In this document: piece after piece, positions 2,460 to 51,031 of the stretch
Position numbering within the stretch: position 1 is the stretch's first letter
Layout: each line of letters starts with the position of its first letter
DNA from: Pseudomonadota bacterium
GTDB lineage: Bacteria; Pseudomonadota; Gammaproteobacteria; QQUJ01
DNA: 64,000 nt
Direction of reading: 5' to 3'
NCBI GenBank assembly: GCA_008501635.1
Contig: QQUJ01000019.1
Coordinates: 124,001 to 188,000, forward strand
The notes under the pieces: model-generated
Database searches by the model: none
Told to the model about the DNA's origin: nothing
Seen by the model: only the letters and a program-made list of their open reading frames with translations
Made by a program: the position numbers and the translations under genes

Positions 2460-5400
2460 ATGCGCCTGAAGAAGATCAAACTCGCTGGGTTCAAATCGTT
2501 TGTCGATCCCACGACTATTCCGTTGCACAGCAACCTGACCGGCATCGTAGGTCCCAACGGTTGCGGCAAGTCCAATGTTATCGACGCCGTACGCTGGGTG
2601 ATGGGGGAAAGCTCCGCCAAGAACCTGCGTGGCGACTCCATGGCCGATGTCATCTTCAACGGCTCCAACTCCCGCAAACCGGTGGGACAAGCCTTTATCG
2701 AACTGGTCTTCGATAACAGCGACGGCTCCTTGGGCGGGCAGTATGCCAACTACGCCGAGATCTCGATCAAGCGCGTCGTGGCGCGTGATGGGCAGTCGAA
2801 CTATTTCCTCAACAGCGCACGTTGCCGACGCCGCGACATCACCGATGTATTTCTGGGAACCGGCCTGGGTCCACGTAGCTATTCGATTATTGAACAGGGG
2901 ATGATCTCACGGCTCATCGAGGCGAAACCGGAGGAGCTGCGAATCTATTTGGAGGAGGCGGCAGGAATTTCCAAGTACAAGGAGCGCCGTCGTGAAACCG
3001 AGACGCGCATGCGCCACACCCGTGAGAACCTCGAGCGTCTGCAGGATCTGCGCGACGAAGTGGCAAAACAGTTGCAGCACTTGCAACGCCAGGCCAAAAC
3101 GGCAGAGCGTTTTAAGGTGTTAAAGGAGGAGGAACGGCGTTTAAAGGCTGAGTACCTGGCGCTGCGCTGGCGCGGCTTGGATCACGAGGACAAGGCGCTG
3201 GAGCAAAAGATTCGCGAACTGGAGACACGTCGCGAAGCGGCGCTCGCCGAACAGCGCGGGTTGGAACGCCAACTCGAGGAAGGTCGCGCACAGCAGATCG
3301 AGACCAACGACGGCTTCAACGAGGTTCAGGGGCGCTATTACGGTGTGGGTGCGGAGATTGCGCGGGTCGAACAGGCGATTCAGCACGGTAAAGAGACCGA
3401 ACATCGTCAGCAACACGACCTGCAGCAGGTGGAGAAGGCCTGGCAGGAGGCCCAATCCCACATACACAATGATCAGCACCGCCTGGGCGAATTGACCGCT
3501 CAACTACGCGAACACGAACCCCAGTTGGGCAGTGCAGAGAAGCGAGCCGCCGAATCAGCAGCGCTGTTGGCGTCCGCCGAAGAGGGGATGCGCACCTGGC
3601 AGGCCGAGTGGGACGAATTCAACCGCCTTGCCGCCGAACCCGCCCAAACCGCCGAGGTCGAGCGTACACGTATCCAGCATCTGGACCAGCAATTGATGCG
3701 TTTGCGCGATGCGATCAAACGCAACGAACAAGAGCTTCAGAGTCTTTCCTGGGAGGGGTTGGAACGCGAGATCGGCGAACTCGAGACGCAAATGGCGGAG
3801 CACACGACTCAGGGCAGCGATCTGGAAGCCCAATTGGGTGGTCTTAGCGAACGCATCGGCGAATTGCGCGAGCACAACACGCGTTACGGGCAAGAGATCC
3901 ATCAGGCTCGTATCGAACTGCAGAATGCGCGGGGTCGCGACGCTTCGATCGAAGCACTGCAGCAGGCTGCGCTAGGTGAAGGCAAAGGTGTGATAGCCGG
4001 ATGGCTGGAACGACAGGGGCTCAAGGATGCACCACGACTTGCCAAGGAATTGCAGGTCGAAAATGGGTGGGAGCGCGCCGTCGAAACCGTTTTGGGGGCC
4101 AGCGTGGAAGCCGTCTGCGTCGAGGGTCTCGACGCCTATGCCGACGTATTGAGTAGCATTGCGGGCGGAACGCTCACGTTGCTGGAACGCAACAACAGCG
4201 GCGCCTCCAGCAGCATTGCTGATGCGACGCCGTTGGCCAGCAAGGTGAGCGCCGACTGGTCGCTGGGCGGTTTGTTGCAGGATATCTACGCAGCCGATGA
4301 TTTGAACGCGGCTTTGAGATTGCGCGAGCACCTCCCCGCCACCGGTTCAGTGGTGACGCGCGATGGTCTATGGGTTGGCCGCCATTGGCTGCGGGTGGTG
4401 CGCGAAAGCGATGCCAAAGCGGGTGTTCTCGAGCGCGAGAAAGAACGCCGCGAACTGAGCGTGCAGATCGATGTGCTCGAGCGCCGTGTTTCCGGACTGG
4501 AGCTCGAGTTGGAGAACACTCGCGAGGAACTGCGCGAAGAGGAACGACGGCGCGATGAGTTGCAGTCGCAGCTCAACCGGCTCAATAGCGCCAAAGCGGA
4601 TATCCAGGCTCAGGTGGCGGGGAAGCGCGGACGTCTCGAGCAAGCCAGGAACCGCAGCGAAAGACTCACGCGGGAGTTGCGCGAGGCGGAGGAACAGATC
4701 GATCGCGACGAGTCGCATGTGCGCGAGGCGCGGGGTTGTCTCGACGGAGCGGTCACGCGCATGGACGAATTCCAGCGCCGCCGCGAGACCCTGGTGGAAA
4801 AGCGACGCGAACATGAGACGCTACTCGAGCAGCGCCGCGCACTGGCCCGGAACGATCGCGATCAAGTCCATCAGGTGGCATTGCGCGTGGAGTCCACGCG
4901 TACCGGGCTTGCATCCACACAGCAAAGCCTGGAGCGCATGCGGGGACAGATCGCGCACCTCGCTACACGGCGTGAGGAACTGCAGGAAGGTTTGCGCCAG
5001 GCGGCGGCCCCCAGTCGCGCGCTGGCCACCGAGTTGGAGGCGCTGCTGAAACGGCGTATCGCCGTCGAGGAAGAGCTGGGCAGGGCGCGGCGCAAGGTCG
5101 AAGAGATCGATGAGCGCCTGCGTGGTCTGGAACAGGGCCGCAGCGCTGCCGAGCAGAAGGTGCAGGAGGTGCGCGAGGCATTGGATCGCCAGCGCATGGA
5201 GTGGCAGGGAGTCCACGTGCGTCGCCAGACCGTTGAAGAACAGATCATCGAGACAGGTTTCGCATTGCAGGCCTTGTTCGAGGAGATGCCCGAAAGCGCG
5301 ACCACCGACGAGTGGCACGAGAAGGTGGAGAATATTGCGCAGCGTATTCAGCGTCTCGGTCCGATCAACCTGGCGGCGATAGACGAGTTCAAGGAACAAA

Positions 5401-5969
5401 GTGAACGCATGGCCTATCTGGATTCGCAGTATGCGGATTTGACGGAATCACTGAACACCCTGGAGAACGCGATACGCAAGATCGACCGTGAGACCCGTAC
5501 GCGATTCAAGGAGACCTACGACAAGGTCAACAGTGGTCTAAAAGAGATGTTCCCAAGACTCTACGGCGGCGGACATGCCTATCTGGAAATGACCGGCAAC
5601 GATCTGTTGGACACTGGCATCACCGTCATGGCACGCCCTCCGGGTAAGCGCATCAGTACTATTCATCTCCTTTCGGGTGGGGAAAAGGCGTTGACCGCTG
5701 TGGCGCTGGTCTTTGCCATTTTTCAACTCAATCCCGCGCCGTTCTGCATGCTCGACGAGGTCGATGCGCCGCTCGACGAGGCCAACGTGGGACGCTTTTG
5801 TGACCTGGTGCGCGAGATGTCGGAACGGGTGCAGTTCATCTTCATCACGCACAACAAAACCACCATGGAGATGGCCAATCAACTCATCGGCGTAACGATG
5901 CACGAGCCCGGGGTGTCGCGGCTGGTAGCCGTGGATGTGGACGACGCCGTACAGATGGCGACCGGGTAA
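2460..5969 (+). CDS. smc: chromosome segregation protein SMC
   Basis: SMC is the ATPase of the bacterial condensin that organises and segregates the chromosome with ScpA and ScpB, both encoded near 19-20.6 kb. The 1169-residue length and layout are canonical: N-terminal head with Walker A GPNGCGKSN (31-39), long coiled coil, a globular hinge around residues 500-650, a second coiled coil rich in Glu, Arg, Gln and Leu, and a C-terminal head with signature LSGGEKA (1071-1077) and Walker B FCMLDEVDAPL starting at about 1093. The start MRLKKIKLAGFKSF is the standard SMC N-terminus and supports the ATG at 2460. zipA and ligA follow, as in Pseudomonas. Confidence 0.98.
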   Translation: MRLKKIKLAGFKSFVDPTTIPLHSNLTGIVGPNGCGKSNVIDAVRWVMGESSAKNLRGDSMADVIFNGSNSRKPVGQAFIELVFDNSDGSLGGQYANYAEISIKRVVARDGQSNYFLNSARCRRRDITDVFLGTGLGPRSYSIIEQGMISRLIEAKPEELRIYLEEAAGISKYKERRRETETRMRHTRENLERLQDLRDEVAKQLQHLQRQAKTAERFKVLKEEERRLKAEYLALRWRGLDHEDKALEQKIRELETRREAALAEQRGLERQLEEGRAQQIETNDGFNEVQGRYYGVGAEIARVEQAIQHGKETEHRQQHDLQQVEKAWQEAQSHIHNDQHRLGELTAQLREHEPQLGSAEKRAAESAALLASAEEGMRTWQAEWDEFNRLAAEPAQTAEVERTRIQHLDQQLMRLRDAIKRNEQELQSLSWEGLEREIGELETQMAEHTTQGSDLEAQLGGLSERIGELREHNTRYGQEIHQARIELQNARGRDASIEALQQAALGEGKGVIAGWLERQGLKDAPRLAKELQVENGWERAVETVLGASVEAVCVEGLDAYADVLSSIAGGTLTLLERNNSGASSSIADATPLASKVSADWSLGGLLQDIYAADDLNAALRLREHLPATGSVVTRDGLWVGRHWLRVVRESDAKAGVLEREKERRELSVQIDVLERRVSGLELELENTREELREEERRRDELQSQLNRLNSAKADIQAQVAGKRGRLEQARNRSERLTRELREAEEQIDRDESHVREARGCLDGAVTRMDEFQRRRETLVEKRREHETLLEQRRALARNDRDQVHQVALRVESTRTGLASTQQSLERMRGQIAHLATRREELQEGLRQAAAPSRALATELEALLKRRIAVEEELGRARRKVEEIDERLRGLEQGRSAAEQKVQEVREALDRQRMEWQGVHVRRQTVEEQIIETGFALQALFEEMPESATTDEWHEKVENIAQRIQRLGPINLAAIDEFKEQSERMAYLDSQYADLTESLNTLENAIRKIDRETRTRFKETYDKVNSGLKEMFPRLYGGGHAYLEMTGNDLLDTGITVMARPPGKRISTIHLLSGGEKALTAVALVFAIFQLNPAPFCMLDEVDAPLDEANVGRFCDLVREMSERVQFIFITHNKTTMEMANQLIGVTMHEPGVSRLVAVDVDDAVQMATG

Positions 5970-5996
5970 AAGAAGAACGAACGGCAAGGTGTAGAT

Positions 5997-9924
<3,928 letters not shown>

Positions 9925-45218: not shown

Positions 45219-45866
45219 TCACGGATGTTGATACCCGGTGCGGAACCGTTCCAGCACCAACTCCATTTCGGCGTCCGCCAGTATTTCGGGTTCGCCCAGT
45301 TGTAGCGTGCGCCAGTAGACATCGGCCAGATGTTCCACTTCCATTGCGATAGCGAACGCCTCACACAGCGTTGTCCCCAAAGTGATAAGTCCATGGTGAG
45401 CCATCAGGCATGCCTTACGACCTGTCAATGCCTGCTGCGCAAGATCAGACAGCTCCTGCGTCCCAAACGTGGCGTAGCCGGAGCAGCGGATGTCGTTGCC
45501 CCCGGCAATGGCAACCATGTAGTGAAAGGCGGGTATCGAACGTTTCATACAGGCCAGGGTCGTGACCGCGCGACCGTGGGTATGGAGAACAGCGTTGATC
45601 TCGGTACGCCCTGCCAGGATATCGCGATGGAAACGCCATTCGCTGGAGGGCCGGGCACCGGGGCTGCCTTGCCACTCGCCGTCGAAATCCATGGCGACGA
45701 TATCGTCTGCGGTGAGCGCGTCGTAGGCGATGGCGGCGGGTGTGATCAGAAACCCTTCGCCCTGGCGCACGCTGCCGTTGCCTGATTTACCCTGATTGAT
45801 GCCCTGCGCGTTCATGGCGCGCATGGTTGCGATTAACTCCTGACGCAGTTCCCGGGTTTTTTTCAT
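45219..45866 (-). CDS. class II aldolase/adducin-family protein (fuculose-phosphate aldolase type)
   Basis: A 215-residue zinc-dependent class II aldolase. It has the N-terminal GINQGKSGNGSVRQGEGFLITP (shown in part: GKSGNGSV, FLITP), the acidic SSEWRFHRDILAGR carrying a catalytic glutamate, the metal-binding AVLHTHGRAVTTLA, and a C-terminal LMAHHGLITLG with further His ligands. It matches L-fuculose-phosphate aldolase length and motif order; the sugar substrate is not determinable. The ATG at 45866 (MKKTREL) follows GGGGATGAAAG. It is divergent from the PepSY gene. Confidence 0.88.
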   Translation of the reverse strand: MKKTRELRQELIATMRAMNAQGINQGKSGNGSVRQGEGFLITPAAIAYDALTADDIVAMDFDGEWQGSPGARPSSEWRFHRDILAGRTEINAVLHTHGRAVTTLACMKRSIPAFHYMVAIAGGNDIRCSGYATFGTQELSDLAQQALTGRKACLMAHHGLITLGTTLCEAFAIAMEVEHLADVYWRTLQLGEPEILADAEMELVLERFRTGYQHP

Positions 45867-46020
45867 ATCACTTTCATCCCCGCCCAACGAGTACCCATCA
45901 TCCGTTACCACCCTGCAGGGTATTCATACCGTCACCCGCCGCGACTGTCCAGTGACACGGCTTTGACCCCTGCATCATAGAGTGACCTGCAACCCGGTAG
46001 GCCGGCCCGGAGTGTTCGGT

Positions 46021-46075
46021 ATTCAGTCTCGTTTCAGCATTTTTTCAGTGTGGTTTCAGTGCCGCCCAGTACTCT
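46021..46075 (+). promoter_or_regulatory. four 11-bp-spaced TTCAG direct repeats plus -10 (response-regulator box)
   Basis: ATTCAG (46021) and TTTCAG (46032, 46043, 46054) start exactly 11 bp apart, so all lie on one face of the helix. A -10-like TACTCT starts at 46070, 16 nt after the start of the last repeat. Such direct-repeat arrays are the usual binding sites of OmpR/PhoB-family regulators; the likely regulator is the one encoded at 48551-49219. The array precedes the PepSY gene. Confidence 0.6.
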
Positions 46076-46128
46076 GCCCACCGTGGTCAACGAGATCACA
46101 CTACCCACTCAACCGCAGGAGAGATGCC

Positions 46129-46470
46129 ATGAATACCAAATCACTTGTTTTGATTGCCGGGCTGATGACAGCTACCGCCACCACCGTTGCCTGGGCCGCG
46201 AAGGATGCCGACAACATTGCCAACCGACTGATGGGACGCAGCGACAGTGCGCTGGTGCAGAGCGTGGAGGGCAAGCAGATCGTGCCTCTGGAAAGTGTCG
46301 TCGCCAGGGTGCGCAACGATCAACCCGGGACGATAGTCGAAGTCGAACTGGAACGCGATGACGGCAGGCTGCGCTACGAGATCGAGGTCGTCGATGCCGG
46401 GGGCAGGGTTCACAAACTGGTCTACGACGCGATCACCATCGAGCCGCTGGTACGCGGTGAAAAGCGCTGA
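46129..46470 (+). CDS. secreted PepSY-domain protein (113 aa)
   Basis: A 113-residue exported protein: a signal peptide (MNTKSLVLIAGLMTATATTV, cleavage near AWA-AK) precedes a single PepSY domain (about 50-113; QIVPLESVVARVR, then IVEVELERDDGRLRYEIEV and HKLVYDAITIEPL). PepSY proteins often act in metal or redox sensing, and secreted ones accompany two-component systems. A second PepSY gene lies at 48250. The ATG at 46129 has GCAGGAGAG at ribosome-binding distance; a longer upstream frame would run through the promoter array and is rejected. Confidence 0.88.
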   Translation: MNTKSLVLIAGLMTATATTVAWAAKDADNIANRLMGRSDSALVQSVEGKQIVPLESVVARVRNDQPGTIVEVELERDDGRLRYEIEVVDAGGRVHKLVYDAITIEPLVRGEKR

Positions 46471-46522
46471 CCTGGAAGGGTTTGAGTGATCGATGGCGGC
46501 CGGGCCGGCGTGGCTCGGCCGC

Positions 46523-46555
46523 TTTCAGTCTGGTTTCAGCCAAGCGCCTTATTGT
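46523..46555 (+). promoter_or_regulatory. paired 11-bp-spaced TTTCAG repeats plus -10 before the cytochrome genes
   Basis: TTTCAG occurs at 46523 and 46534 (11 bp apart), and a -10-like TATTGT begins at 46550, again 16 nt after the start of the last repeat. Geometry is identical to the array before the PepSY gene, which supports common control of both transcripts. Confidence 0.58.
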
Positions 46556-46589: not shown

Positions 46590-47159
46590 ATGTCCAATGA
46601 CAACATCAAGGTGTGGGATCCGATGGTGCGGCTGTTCCACTGGTCGCTGGTGATGTCATTCACGGTCTCTTACATCAGCGAGGATGATCTGCTCGATCTG
46701 CACGTACTGAGCGGCTACCTCATCGGGGGATTGCTGCTGTTTCGGCTGGTGTGGGGAATGATCGGTCCCCACCACGCCCGTTTCAGCAGTTTTGTGCATC
46801 GCCCGCGCGTCGTCGGGGAGTATCTCAAGGACATTCTTGCCTTCCAGCCCAGGCGGTATCTCGGCCACAACCCGGCCGGAGGCTGGATGGTGGTGATGTT
46901 AATGATCAGCCTGGCGCTGGCGACGGTGACAGGATTGGTGACTTACGGCGCGGAAGAGATGGCCGGTCCCTTGGCAGGCGCCATGGCCGGATCGGGCCGT
47001 ATCGTTGGCGATGCCTTCGAGGAGATGCACGAGTTCTTCGCGAACTTCACCCTGTTGCTGGTCATCGTACACGTGGCGGGCGTGATCCTGGCGAGCCTGC
47101 AACATCGCGAAAATCTGGTGCGCGCGATGTTCGACGGCCGTAAGCGTGTCATGGAATAG
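46590..47159 (+). CDS. cytochrome b561-type membrane protein
   Basis: A 189-residue, four-helix b-type cytochrome of the Ni/Fe-hydrogenase/b561 family. Heme-ligand histidines are visible in VRLFHWSLV (about 13-21), LDLHVLSGYLIGG (about 36-48), EEMHEFFANF and LLVIVHVAGVIL (about 166-177). It probably passes quinol electrons to the periplasmic cytochromes c encoded next, an arrangement also known from the Rhodobacter sphaeroides SHP gene cluster. The SD-like GGGGTAA lies before the ATG. The promoter has the 11-bp repeat box. Confidence 0.9.
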   Translation: MSNDNIKVWDPMVRLFHWSLVMSFTVSYISEDDLLDLHVLSGYLIGGLLLFRLVWGMIGPHHARFSSFVHRPRVVGEYLKDILAFQPRRYLGHNPAGGWMVVMLMISLALATVTGLVTYGAEEMAGPLAGAMAGSGRIVGDAFEEMHEFFANFTLLLVIVHVAGVILASLQHRENLVRAMFDGRKRVME

Positions 47160-47197: not shown

Positions 47198-47602
47198 ATG
47201 CGCGATGCCTGTCGAAACTGGATCTTGATCGGTGTCGTGATGCTGGTTCCCGTTGCGACGCTGGCGGACACCACGGATCAGGCACTGGCTGACTATCGCG
47301 CTCAGGGCGCGGGCACTTTTGACGGTGACGCGGGCCGCCGTCTCTGGAATACCGAGCAGAGCACCGCCGATCGCACCACGCGAAGCTGTGTCAGTTGTCA
47401 CGGTGCCGATCCCACCCGGCCCGGACGTCACGTGCGCACCGATGAAACCATCAAGCCCATGGCGCCATCAATCAATCCTAAACGCCTCACTGAGCGGCGT
47501 GAGATCGAGAAATGGTTTCTGCGTAACTGTAAATGGACTTTCGGTCGCGAGTGCTCCGCGCAGGAAAAGGGCGACATCCTGAGCTACCTGCGCCGGCAAT
47601 GA
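47198..47602 (+). CDS. SHP-like monoheme cytochrome c (DUF1924 family)
   Basis: A 134-residue exported monoheme cytochrome c. After the signal peptide (to about LA-DTT at 23-24) come CVSCHG (about 64-69) and a C-terminal helix with FLRNCKWTFGRECSAQEKGD. The Asn-Cys and second Cys there match the sphaeroides heme protein (SHP) pattern, in which an asparagine is a labile heme ligand and a disulfide is present. SHP proteins bind O2 or NO and accept electrons from a diheme cytochrome c, which is the next gene. The Shine-Dalgarno is GGAGGG, 8 nt from the ATG. Confidence 0.85.
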   Translation: MRDACRNWILIGVVMLVPVATLADTTDQALADYRAQGAGTFDGDAGRRLWNTEQSTADRTTRSCVSCHGADPTRPGRHVRTDETIKPMAPSINPKRLTERREIEKWFLRNCKWTFGRECSAQEKGDILSYLRRQ

Positions 47603-47678: not shown

Positions 47679-48245
47679 ATGAAGCGTAAACTTTGGATTA
47701 TTCTGGGGATGTTCGGACTCATCGCGACCAGCACCTGGGTGTTCGGTGACGACGGGGAGGGACACACAACGTGGCTGACGCGACTGTGGCGTGAGGCACG
47801 TCTTGACGTCGCACCGGCGAATGACGTCCTTTATCGGGCAGAGTGCGGCAGTTGCCATTTCGCCTATCAACCGGGCCTGCTGCCGGTCCGTTCATGGGAG
47901 GAGATCATGAAGCGACTCGATGATCACTTTGGAGAAAGTGCAGAACTTGACGTTCGGAGCTCGGCCGAGATCACGCGTTACCTGACGGCCAATGCGGCGG
48001 ACCGTGTAGACTACAAGCGTTCGAAGCGGTTCGCCGCTGCGGCCGCCACCGCCGAACCCACCCTACGCATTACCGCTACGCGTTATTTTTTGCACAAGCA
48101 CGACGAGATTCCGCAATGGGTACTTGAGCAGGGGGAGCGGCCATTGAAATTGTTCCAATGCGATATCTGCCATACCGAAGCCGACAAAGGTTCGTACGAC
48201 GAACATCAGGTACACATTCCCGGTCTCGGCCGGTGGGAGGACTGA
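47679..48245 (+). CDS. diheme cytochrome c (DHC-like)
   Basis: A 188-residue exported diheme cytochrome c. The signal peptide (MKRKLWIILGMFGLIATSTW) is followed by CGSCHFAY (about 57-64) and CDICHTEA near residue 166, the two heme sites. Conserved features between them include PVRSWEEIMKRLDDHFGE and YFLHKHDEIP. It is the probable electron donor to the SHP-like protein upstream. The start at 47679 has GAGGTAAAGG at ribosome-binding distance and is preferred over an ATG-equivalent 60 nt upstream. The downstream PepSY gene starts 4 nt after the stop. Confidence 0.9.
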   Translation: MKRKLWIILGMFGLIATSTWVFGDDGEGHTTWLTRLWREARLDVAPANDVLYRAECGSCHFAYQPGLLPVRSWEEIMKRLDDHFGESAELDVRSSAEITRYLTANAADRVDYKRSKRFAAAAATAEPTLRITATRYFLHKHDEIPQWVLEQGERPLKLFQCDICHTEADKGSYDEHQVHIPGLGRWED

Positions 48246-48249
48246 GATC

Positions 48250-48546
48250 ATGAATCGCCCGCTAATCGCCCTCATGCTGTTCGCAGCCGGCACCGGATCC
48301 GTGGTAGCCGATGATGATCATGAACGCGTGCGACGCCTGTTGGAACAGGGCCGCATCGTACCCTTCGAGCAGATCCTCGAACAGGTCCGCAGCCGCCACG
48401 CCGGACGCCTGCTGGAGGTGGAACTGGAGGAGAAGGATCAGCGCCTGATCTATGAGATCGAGATCGTCGATCCCGAAGGCGTGGTATGGGAACTGAAGTA
48501 CGATGCCGTCAGCGGTATGCTGATCAAAGAAGAAAAGGACGACTGA
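48250..48546 (+). CDS. secreted PepSY-domain protein (98 aa)
   Basis: A 98-residue exported protein paralogous to the one at 46129: a signal peptide ([19 protein letters not shown], cleavage near VA-DD) and one PepSY domain ([15 protein letters not shown], then [19 protein letters not shown] and [10 protein letters not shown]). It lies 4 nt after the diheme cytochrome gene and 4 nt before the response-regulator gene, so it belongs to the cytochrome-regulator operon. It may act as the periplasmic accessory of the sensor kinase; this is inference. Confidence 0.88.
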
Positions 48547-48550
48547 TCCC

Positions 48551-49219
48551 ATGCGCCTGCTGCTGGCGGAAGACGATGTGGAACTGGTTGCCCGCCTGAA
48601 ACCGGAGCTGGAGCGTGCCGGATTTGCCGTCGATGTGGCCGACAATGGCATCGATGCCGAATTCCTTGGCGATGAGGAGTCTTTCGACGGCGTGATTCTG
48701 GACCTCGGCCTGCCGCAGCGCCCCGGACTCGAGGTGCTGCGCCACTGGCGCGAGCGAGGCAACGATCTGCCGGTGGTCGTGCTGACCGCACGGGACGCCT
48801 GGCACGAGCGGGTCGACGGCCTCAAGGCCGGTGCCGACGACTATCTTGGCAAGCCGTTTCATAACGAAGAGTTGCTGGCGCGTCTCCAGGCGGTACTGCG
48901 CCGCCGTCACGGACGCGCCGAACCGCTATTGGCAGTCGCAGGGCTGACGCTCGACGAGGAACGCCAGGCCGCGGTCATCGGCGACGCCGAGCCTGTGGCA
49001 CTGACCGGCATCGAGTTTCGACTGCTGCGTTACTTCATGCTGCATCCCGGCAGGGTGCTGTCAAAGACACGTCTCACCGAACATGTCTACGAGGGTGATA
49101 CCGAACCCGACAGCAATGTCGTCGAGGTCTACGTGAAACGCCTGCGCCAGAAGCTCGGGAACGAGATCATCGAAACGCGCCGCGGACAGGGTTACCTCTT
49201 TCACGGCGAGGCCACTTGA
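48551..49219 (+). CDS. OmpR-family response regulator
   Basis: A 222-residue response regulator. The receiver (1-120) has the acidic pair in LLLAEDDVE, the phosphoacceptor D51 in [12 protein letters not shown], the switch Thr in [10 protein letters not shown] and the Lys in DDYLGKPF. The C-terminal winged helix (about 128-222) has [20 protein letters not shown] and [13 protein letters not shown]. It resembles the QseB/PmrA branch. The partner kinase gene overlaps by 1 nt. The 11-bp TTTCAG arrays upstream of the two cytochrome-cluster transcripts are its likely targets. Confidence 0.95.
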
Positions 49220-50610
49220 TGTCGCTGCGCAAGCAGCTTCAGGCGGGCCTCGGTCTGGCCATGGCGGTCATCATTCTGGTGCTCGCTGTGCTGGCCAGCG
49301 AAGCGGTGCGCTATGTCGGTGAGGATCTGGTCGCATCGCGACTTCGCCACGACGCCGAGAGCCTCCTGGCCGCACTGCAAGCCAATACGGAAAGCGCTCT
49401 CGAGGTGGATGCATCGCGCCTCGGTGCGATCTACGAACGTCCCTATGCCGGGCACTATTACGTTGTTGCGCTGCTGGATGCCACATCGCAGCTGAGATCG
49501 CGTTCTCTCTGGGACCACCCGCTAGCCATCCCGCCACTGCCGCCGGGCGAATCGCATCGCTGGCATGCGGCCGGTCCCGATGGTCAACAGCTGCTGGTGT
49601 GGGCAGGCGGGTATCGTAAACAAGGCAGTAATCTTACGATTGCCGTTGCCGAAGAGTTGAGCGCGCTGCACGCACACCTGATCGTGCTGCGTTGGTCGCT
49701 CCTCGGCATCGGCCTTGCGGTGTTGATCGCGGTGCTGGGGTTGCAACGGATGATACTGCGGCGCGGTTTCGCGCCGCTGCAACGCACCGCCGGCGATGTC
49801 GAGCGCCTGGCCAACGGCGATATCGGCCAACTCAGCGAAAACGTACCCGACGAAGTCCGGCCGCTGGTGAAGGAAGTCAACCGGCTGCTGATACTGCTGG
49901 ATCGGCGCCTGCAGCGTTCGCGCAATGCCGCTGGCAATCTGGCGCATGCGCTGAAGGCACAACTTGCTCTGTTGGGCCAACTGGCCCGTACCGAAGAACT
50001 TCGTGCCCACCCGCAGATCTCCGCAGAGTTGGACAGTCGCGTCGGACAGATCAATCAGGTCATCGAAAAGGAACTCAAACGTGCGCGATTGGCGGGGCGG
50101 GCGGGCACTGCCAAGGCATTCCGGCCGTACGATGATCTTCCCCCGCTGATCGAGGTCCTGACACGCATCTATGCGGAACGTGCCCCGGATATCGAAGTCG
50201 ATTGCCCGGCGGAACTCACCCTGCCGCTCGATCGTGATGATGCGCTCGAATTGATCGGCAACCTGCTCGACAATGCCTGCAAATGGGCGCGCCATCGCGT
50301 GCGTCTCACCGTGCAGTCGCCGTCCTCTGGATGCCTGGTCGTCGAAGACGACGGACCCGGCTGCACGCCCGAGCAGATTGAGCAGTTGACCCGACGCGGC
50401 ACACGCATTGACGAGGAGGTGGCGGGACATGGATTGGGGCTGGCTATCGCCCAGGAGATCGCGGAGCTCTACGTAGCCAGATTGAAGCTCGACCGATCAC
50501 CGGCGCTGGGAGGAATGCGGGTTTCCTTCTGTTTTTCCAGCGGATCTGCTGCGCCAAATGACGAGCAGCGGATGTCGCGATCCATCCCCAATGCGCCATC
50601 CGCCAGGTGA
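49219..50610 (+). CDS. sensor histidine kinase (PhoQ/QseC-like)
   Basis: A 463-residue membrane histidine kinase. Order: N-terminal helix (about 9-30), periplasmic domain (about 31-150), second helix (about 154-176), HAMP (to about 230), dimerisation region NLAHALKAQLALLGQLA (about 237-253) with the phosphoacceptor His, and a catalytic ATPase domain with N-box LLDNACKWAR, G1 DDGPG and G2 GHGLGLAIA. Where most kinases have HALKTP the sequence reads HALKAQ, so the conserved proline after the phosphoacceptor His is absent. Its ATG overlaps the regulator stop (TGATG). The likely ligand is periplasmic, possibly redox- or metal-related. Confidence 0.93.
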   Translation: MSLRKQLQAGLGLAMAVIILVLAVLASEAVRYVGEDLVASRLRHDAESLLAALQANTESALEVDASRLGAIYERPYAGHYYVVALLDATSQLRSRSLWDHPLAIPPLPPGESHRWHAAGPDGQQLLVWAGGYRKQGSNLTIAVAEELSALHAHLIVLRWSLLGIGLAVLIAVLGLQRMILRRGFAPLQRTAGDVERLANGDIGQLSENVPDEVRPLVKEVNRLLILLDRRLQRSRNAAGNLAHALKAQLALLGQLARTEELRAHPQISAELDSRVGQINQVIEKELKRARLAGRAGTAKAFRPYDDLPPLIEVLTRIYAERAPDIEVDCPAELTLPLDRDDALELIGNLLDNACKWARHRVRLTVQSPSSGCLVVEDDGPGCTPEQIEQLTRRGTRIDEEVAGHGLGLAIAQEIAELYVARLKLDRSPALGGMRVSFCFSSGSAAPNDEQRMSRSIPNAPSAR

Positions 50611-50708
50611 CAGCCTCGCGGGTAAGAACAGGCCTTGCGCTGCTCTATACAGATACCGAGATCGCTCTCGCAAGTATCTCGAACCGGGGCAAGAAGGGGG
50701 ATCCTGCG

Positions 50709-51031
50709 ATGAAAACCCCAGCATCTTTCTGATCGCACTTCAGGGTGCGAGCACCCCATGGTGCAGCGATGTGGTGGCGCAGGCGGAGATAACGGAACGC
50801 GGGCCGCTCCCATTCGGAGGCTATGATCTTGATGGTGATCGCTATGTCACGCAAATGGAGTACACCGAGATGCGCAATAAACGCATCGAGAATAAGGCCC
50901 GGCAGGGTTATCCGTTGCGCGGGCGGCACTTCGACGCCGGCCGCCCGCGCGCGCAGCTGAATATCGAAGACCTGTTCGCGCTTGAAGAGTTCTATATCGC
51001 GTCGGCGCACCGGCACGATCAGGCGACCTAA
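50709..51031 (+). CDS. EF-hand-domain protein with suspected frameshift in the signal peptide
   Basis: The reliable frame from about 50729 encodes LIALQGASTPWCSDVVAQ-EITERGPLPFGGYDLDGDRYVTQMEY; the calcium-loop DLDGDRYVTQME is a canonical EF-hand (Asp-x-Asp-x-Asp spacing is partly kept, Glu at position 12). The only well-supported start is ATG 50709, with AAGAAGGGGG 8 nt upstream, but its frame (MKTPASF, then stop at 50730) does not match. Re-reading one base near 50729 joins the two into a plausible exported protein, so a 1-nt deletion or sequencing error is likely. A second EF-hand-like region (FDAGRPRAQLNIEDLFALEEF) is degenerate. Upstream in-frame ATG 50558 lies inside the kinase gene and gives unprotein-like sequence. 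Confidence 0.6.

Follow-up and report, generated by a model that had tools for sequence, protein, structure and literature searches.

Two direct-repeat boxes, which precede the first PepSY gene and the cytochrome b561 gene of the DNA stretch analysed here (the window, 64,000 nucleotides in full), very probably serve as operators for a BqsR/CarR-type response regulator, the product of the gene at 48551, and this regulator would act on them by the mechanism proposed below. In its sequence, the box represents a variant, with TTCAG, of the BqsR/PmrA box. SHP operons, this family of regulators and operators of this type are already known. The searchable literature, outside which most subscription papers lie, yielded no mention of the TTTCAG operator, of the fixed geometry of its promoter, of the regulon or of the covariation with the recognition helix.

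The boxes and the gene cluster

The features discussed are collected in Table 1. All eight positions that the sequence-only reading had assigned to the repeats and to the -10-like hexamers proved correct to the base on re-reading, and the step of 16 nt that it had claimed from the start of the last repeat to the start of the hexamer holds at both boxes, which corresponds to a gap of 10 nt. Box 1 contains the exact regulon motif in its last two half-sites together with the -10. A promoter scan detected no sigma-70-type promoter with a -35 over either box.

Table 1. Features of the two boxes, the downstream gene cluster and the distant third box; positions refer to the window unless a locus is named.
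Feature	Position	Strand	Remarks
Box 1, four head-to-tail half-sites	46021..46059	+	ATTCAG at 46021; TTTCAG at 46032, 46043 and 46054; N5 between each; 11-bp pitch
-10-like hexamer TACTCT (box 1)	46070..46075	+	10 nt past last half-site
PepSY1, small secreted PepSY protein (Orf1 of Meyer 2010; DbfQ-like)	46129..46470	+	Pfam PF03413, E 6.8e-9
Hairpin between PepSY1 and box 2	46495..46523	+	12 bp, G+C-rich, very stable, abutting box 2; z = -2.0
Box 2, TTTCAG-N5-TTTCAG	46523..46539	+	half-sites at 46523 and 46534; sequence read
-10-like hexamer TATTGT (box 2)	46550..46555	+	10 nt past box 2
Cytochrome b561-type membrane diheme cytochrome (CytB of SHP operons)	46590..47159	+	PF01292, E 1.6e-21
SHP (sphaeroides heme protein, DUF1924)	47198..47602	+	PF09086, E 8.7e-37
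Diheme cytochrome c (DHC)	47679..48245	+	PF09626, E 1.9e-33
PepSY2, second small PepSY protein	48250..48546	+	PF03413, E 7.1e-11; directly 5' of regulator
OmpR-family response regulator, BqsR/CarR orthologue	48551..49219	+	predicted binder of boxes 1 and 2
SK1-type sensor histidine kinase	49219..50610	+	GHYY and RSRSLWD motifs
Third box, TTTCAGTTTCATTTCAG-N10-TACTCT, with the genes it precedes	L130 (G000:C17:86000-98000), ~5102-7836	minus	

On the basis of its gene context and of what is known of the family, we take the product of the DUF1924 gene (PF09086) to be SHP, a cytochrome that binds oxygen and whose function has awaited explanation for decades. The ATG of the kinase gene overlaps the stop codon of the regulator gene (at 49219), and a scan of the stretch from box 2 to the regulator gene found neither a terminator-like site nor another sigma-70-like promoter. 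With box 2 at the head of the regulator's own operon, this arrangement fits the autoregulation that had been suggested earlier.

The hairpin that abuts box 2 is without a clear T run, and the terminator scan gave no terminator score there. It could nevertheless mark the end of the PepSY1 transcript, and its location between PepSY1 and box 2 would fit a separate transcription of PepSY1. On the minus strand, a class II aldolase (fuculose-phosphate aldolase-like) gene at 45219-45911 is transcribed divergently to PepSY1. It begins about 110 bp from box 1 and therefore has the intergenic region in common with PepSY1.

The gene content is that of a described type of operon. The accessible text of Meyer et al. 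2010 (PMC2909971) lists CytB, SHP, DHC, Orf1, an RR and an SK1 kinase with RSRSLWD as the SK1-type SHP operon and proposes that SHP operons are regulated by SK1/RR; no operator is found in that text. The window holds CytB, SHP and DHC, Orf1 (= PepSY), an RR and an RSRSLWD kinase, and departs from the operon as described there by a second PepSY gene, located with its own box 5' of the operon. Shewanella oneidensis is likewise reported to possess an operon of this kind.

Conservation of the box and co-occurrence with the regulator gene

The comparison was based on 73 loci collected by the regulator protein (47 of them from close relatives), 40 collected by regulator matches and 2 included for carrying boxes; after removal of near-duplicates, 71 non-redundant regulator loci were available. 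An unbiased scan of these loci for hexamers repeated at any pitch from 7 to 22 placed TTTCAG at the top, repeated at 11 bp in 18 loci, while at any other pitch in this range its repeat was seen in at most 2 loci. The position of the -10 is equally constrained: when all pairs with at most 1 mismatch were picked irrespective of a -10 (49 boxes), TANNNT followed at offset +10 in 39 and at any other offset in no more than 2. Taking the best box per locus, a score of 1 or better was reached in the sense orientation in 36 of the 71 loci, in antisense in 2 and by the reversed motif in none. The boxes of the regulator loci are mostly positioned 50-90 bp 5' of the b561 start, and the alignment of 70 boxes yields the consensus tTTTCAGyTTsrTTTCAGcTT-N7-TANNNT. 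The sequence-only reading had made its proposal depend on conservation in orthologous loci; there, in relatives from across the phylum, the repeats, the 11-bp pitch and the 10-nt gap are indeed kept before b561/PepSY operons.

In about one third of the regulator loci, the retrieved stretch shows no recognisable box; most Granulosicoccus-type loci without b561/SHP/PepSY are among them. The Granulosicoccus-type orthologue loci L036, L037, L041-L043, L045, L047, L049 and L053 contain no b561, SHP or PepSY gene and no recognisable box; the helix of Granulosicoccus-type regulator orthologues is YRR where read.

The association with the regulator gene was evaluated in 369 genomes of the class with the pattern TTTCAG-N5-TTTCA-N11-TANNNT. 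It is present in 34 of the 83 genomes with a regulator orthologue vs 12 of the 286 genomes without (Fisher p = 1e-15), and for 30 boxes the distance to the regulator gene is no more than 6 kb. Since the reversed pattern gives 10 chance matches in the same 369 genomes, the 12 boxes of the orthologue-less genomes are at chance level. The conservation of the boxes and their genome-wide co-occurrence with the regulator gene support the regulator at 48551 as the candidate binder that had been put forward for them.

The regulator and its recognition helix

The best match of P. aeruginosa CarR in the genome is the regulator at 48551 (62% identity, 270 bits vs 212 for the next), and CarR is in turn among the best PDB matches for both halves of this regulator. 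Being the best match in both directions, the regulator is, by this comparison, a BqsR/CarR orthologue. Its best NCBIfam model is PmrA, with a score below the cut-off (186 bits vs 330). Vibrio CarR was considered as a model and dropped, as its published motifs differ (GACA-N6-TACA, PMC10433830; RstA-like box, PMC9178039).

BqsR is an activator with the operator TTAAG-N6-TTAAG, the most downstream pentamer of which overlaps the -35; a BqsR promoter with four pentamers, the outer two adding strength, is also known (PMC4682146). The window shares with this system the orthologous regulator, the paired pentamers, the 11-bp pitch, the last half-site at the -35 position and, in box 1, the four-unit layout. 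PepSY genes 5' of the regulator are a further likeness: PA2658/PA2659 are placed before bqsRS in the accessible text of PMC12714742, and PepSY1/PepSY2 occupy this place in the window. On the other hand, the half-sites of the window read TTCAG-N6-TTCAG, with C and not A as pentamer base 3, and the targets are SHP/DHC/b561 and a multiheme-cytochrome operon. The PmrA box, CTTAAG-N5-NTTAAT (PMC3973317), likewise consists of head-to-tail hexamers at an 11-bp pitch, recognised by a winged-helix regulator of the same subfamily; however, its half-sites differ from TTTCAG at base 4, the window regulator falls below the PmrA cut-off and the cluster is without lipid A genes.

The helix positions that likely read the bases in PmrA are His193, His195 and Asn196 (PMC3973317). 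At the equivalent positions, the window regulator has Y-K-R in place of the H-N-H of P. aeruginosa CarR/BqsR. Across loci, the middle residue and half-site base 4 vary together, Lys/Arg being found with TTTCAG and Asn with at least one TTTAAG; orthologues with helix Asn often bear one or two TTAAG half-sites. The rule that Asn or Ser gives TTAAG, fixed beforehand, was borne out in two further sets, with p = 0.024 and p = 0.042; the grouping of Ser with Asn was wrong, Ser behaving like Lys/Arg. When Asn alone is set against the rest in a pooled, post hoc contrast, which kinship inflates, A is present in 22 of 28 vs 6 of 71 cases (p = 1.5e-11). After correction for kinship on a concatenated tree (the RR-only tree being too poorly resolved), about 5 informative contrasts remain, and essentially all of them point the way predicted; the p values of 0.06-0.13 are borderline and not significant. 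The covariation between the helix residue and base 4 is thus suggestive. The chances seem to us evenly balanced that there is a branch of the BqsR family in which the operator has passed from TTAAG to TTCAG as Asn gave way to Lys/Arg at the PmrA His195 position, and which commands a quinol-to-SHP redox pathway together with genes of metal efflux (CzcCBA) and repair (MsrA). If this were true, the function of SHP would be linked to metal or redox stress. For changes of DNA specificity in the OmpR family, a test case is also at hand in the TTCAG/TTAAG variation that occurs naturally with one helix residue.

Direct repeats at an 11-bp pitch that replace the -35 are common to PhoB, PmrA and BqsR, and the genome encodes two paralogues, with 50% and 49% identity to BqsR, that could cross-bind the boxes; it is nonetheless unlikely that these are bound by another regulator of the OmpR/PhoB family, be it PhoB or a PmrA/QseB-type paralogue. 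The half-site of the Pho box is TGTCAT vs TTTCAG, and the family scores do not make the window regulator a PhoB. Moreover, the boxes track the gene of the 48551-type regulator across the 369 genomes and sit in its own operon, and half-site base 4 varies with the helix residue of this same regulator. The orthologue-less genomes are not only at chance level; their boxes are also mostly off consensus, with the final G in 2 of 12, and the most consensus-like of these genomes, G191 (L213), carries, less than 2 kb from its box, a BqsR-like gene that has diverged (45% identity to BqsR).

Predicted activation and the wider regulon

We propose that a periplasmic signal, possibly a metal cation such as Fe2+ or a redox or envelope stress, activates the adjacent SK1-type kinase, which would then phosphorylate the regulator. 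The kinase region that is the candidate for an Fe2+ response reads RLRHDAESLLAAL, not a clear ExxE. Dimers of the phosphorylated regulator would bind the TTTCAG half-sites head-to-tail, one helical turn (11 bp) apart; as 10 nt separate the end of the downstream half-site from the -10, the regulator would occupy the place of a would-be -35 and recruit RNA polymerase (class II activation). Box 1 would switch on PepSY1, its two upstream half-sites probably adding strength, and box 2 would switch on the b561-SHP-DHC-PepSY2-regulator-kinase operon, resulting in positive autoregulation; a distant reductase/multiheme-cytochrome operon (see below) would be switched on as well. Finally, the PepSY proteins would probably bind and damp the kinase sensor, like DbfQ on DbfS, and thereby provide negative feedback. 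According to the accessible text of PMC12714742, the PepSY protein of the DbfQRS system of Vibrio cholerae binds the kinase sensor and favours the phosphatase state, and the dbfQRS promoter reports positive autoregulation. The window resembles this system in its content of genes for a PepSY protein, an RR and a kinase and in the predicted autoregulation of their promoter; it differs in its cytochromes, a word absent from that text, which does not give an operator either.

Activation, and not repression, is what we infer from the position of the boxes. An operator near the -10 is also where repressors bind, and a regulator seated there might block RNA polymerase; yet the boxes have no recognisable -35 and keep a fixed 10-nt gap to the -10, as with a polymerase-contacting activator, BqsR activates its targets (PMC4682146) and positive autoregulation is described for the dbfQRS promoter in the accessible text of PMC12714742, so that repression through the boxes appears highly improbable. 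That the repeats are due to chance or composition and have no regulatory role can practically be dismissed: pairs with at most 2 mismatches are not rare in the window (7 seen vs 3.2 expected, with 6 of 100 shuffles equally good, which is not remarkable), but all comparative tests speak against it, and the conserved pitch and +10 spacing in practice refute it.

The exact boxes are rare in the genome of origin. Its 3.93 Mb contain 4 occurrences of the exact pair TTTCAG-N5-TTTCAG, 3 of these within a 0.5-kb stretch here, and none of the reversed pair. A genome-wide search for the repeat pair with a -10 at 10 nt, suggested earlier as a check, returned three exact sites of TTTCAG-N5-TTTCAG-N10-TANNNT, two being boxes 1 and 2 and the third G000:C17:93799(-). 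The third site precedes the gene of an NAD/FAD/2Fe-2S reductase with an N-terminal hydrophobic segment (membrane-anchored), followed by those of a small membrane protein and a c3-type multiheme cytochrome. Because this site played no part in defining the motif, the correct spacing that it shows in front of a redox operon constitutes independent support, and the reductase/multiheme-cytochrome operon likely belongs to the same regulon. Four further genome sites with 2 mismatches are not claimed, the reversed control also giving 4.

In genomes that encode the regulator elsewhere, the box still stands before b561-DHC fusions (L206, L207), SHP + DHC (L205) or b561 (L200, L208). In such genomes it is also found before CusA/CzcA-type heavy-metal RND efflux operons (L203, L204), as it is in L213 of G191, and in L201 (4175-5730) it precedes the genes of methionine sulfoxide reductase A (MsrA) and a PPK2 polyphosphate kinase. 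The regulon of PepSY, b561, SHP and DHC genes envisaged by the sequence-only reading is thus supported for the cluster and is to be refined, as the predicted regulon extends beyond the window and this type of cluster had already been described. A predictable operator of the SHP regulator would allow the genes that respond together to be listed in silico in any genome with the system; those already brought in encode CusA/CzcA-type metal efflux, methionine sulfoxide reductase and the multiheme-cytochrome reductase operon.

Lastly, a small ORF 3' of the kinase gene (50558-51031), with no Pfam match, contains the EF-hand-like stretch DLDGDRYVTQMEY and possibly encodes a calcium-binding secreted protein.
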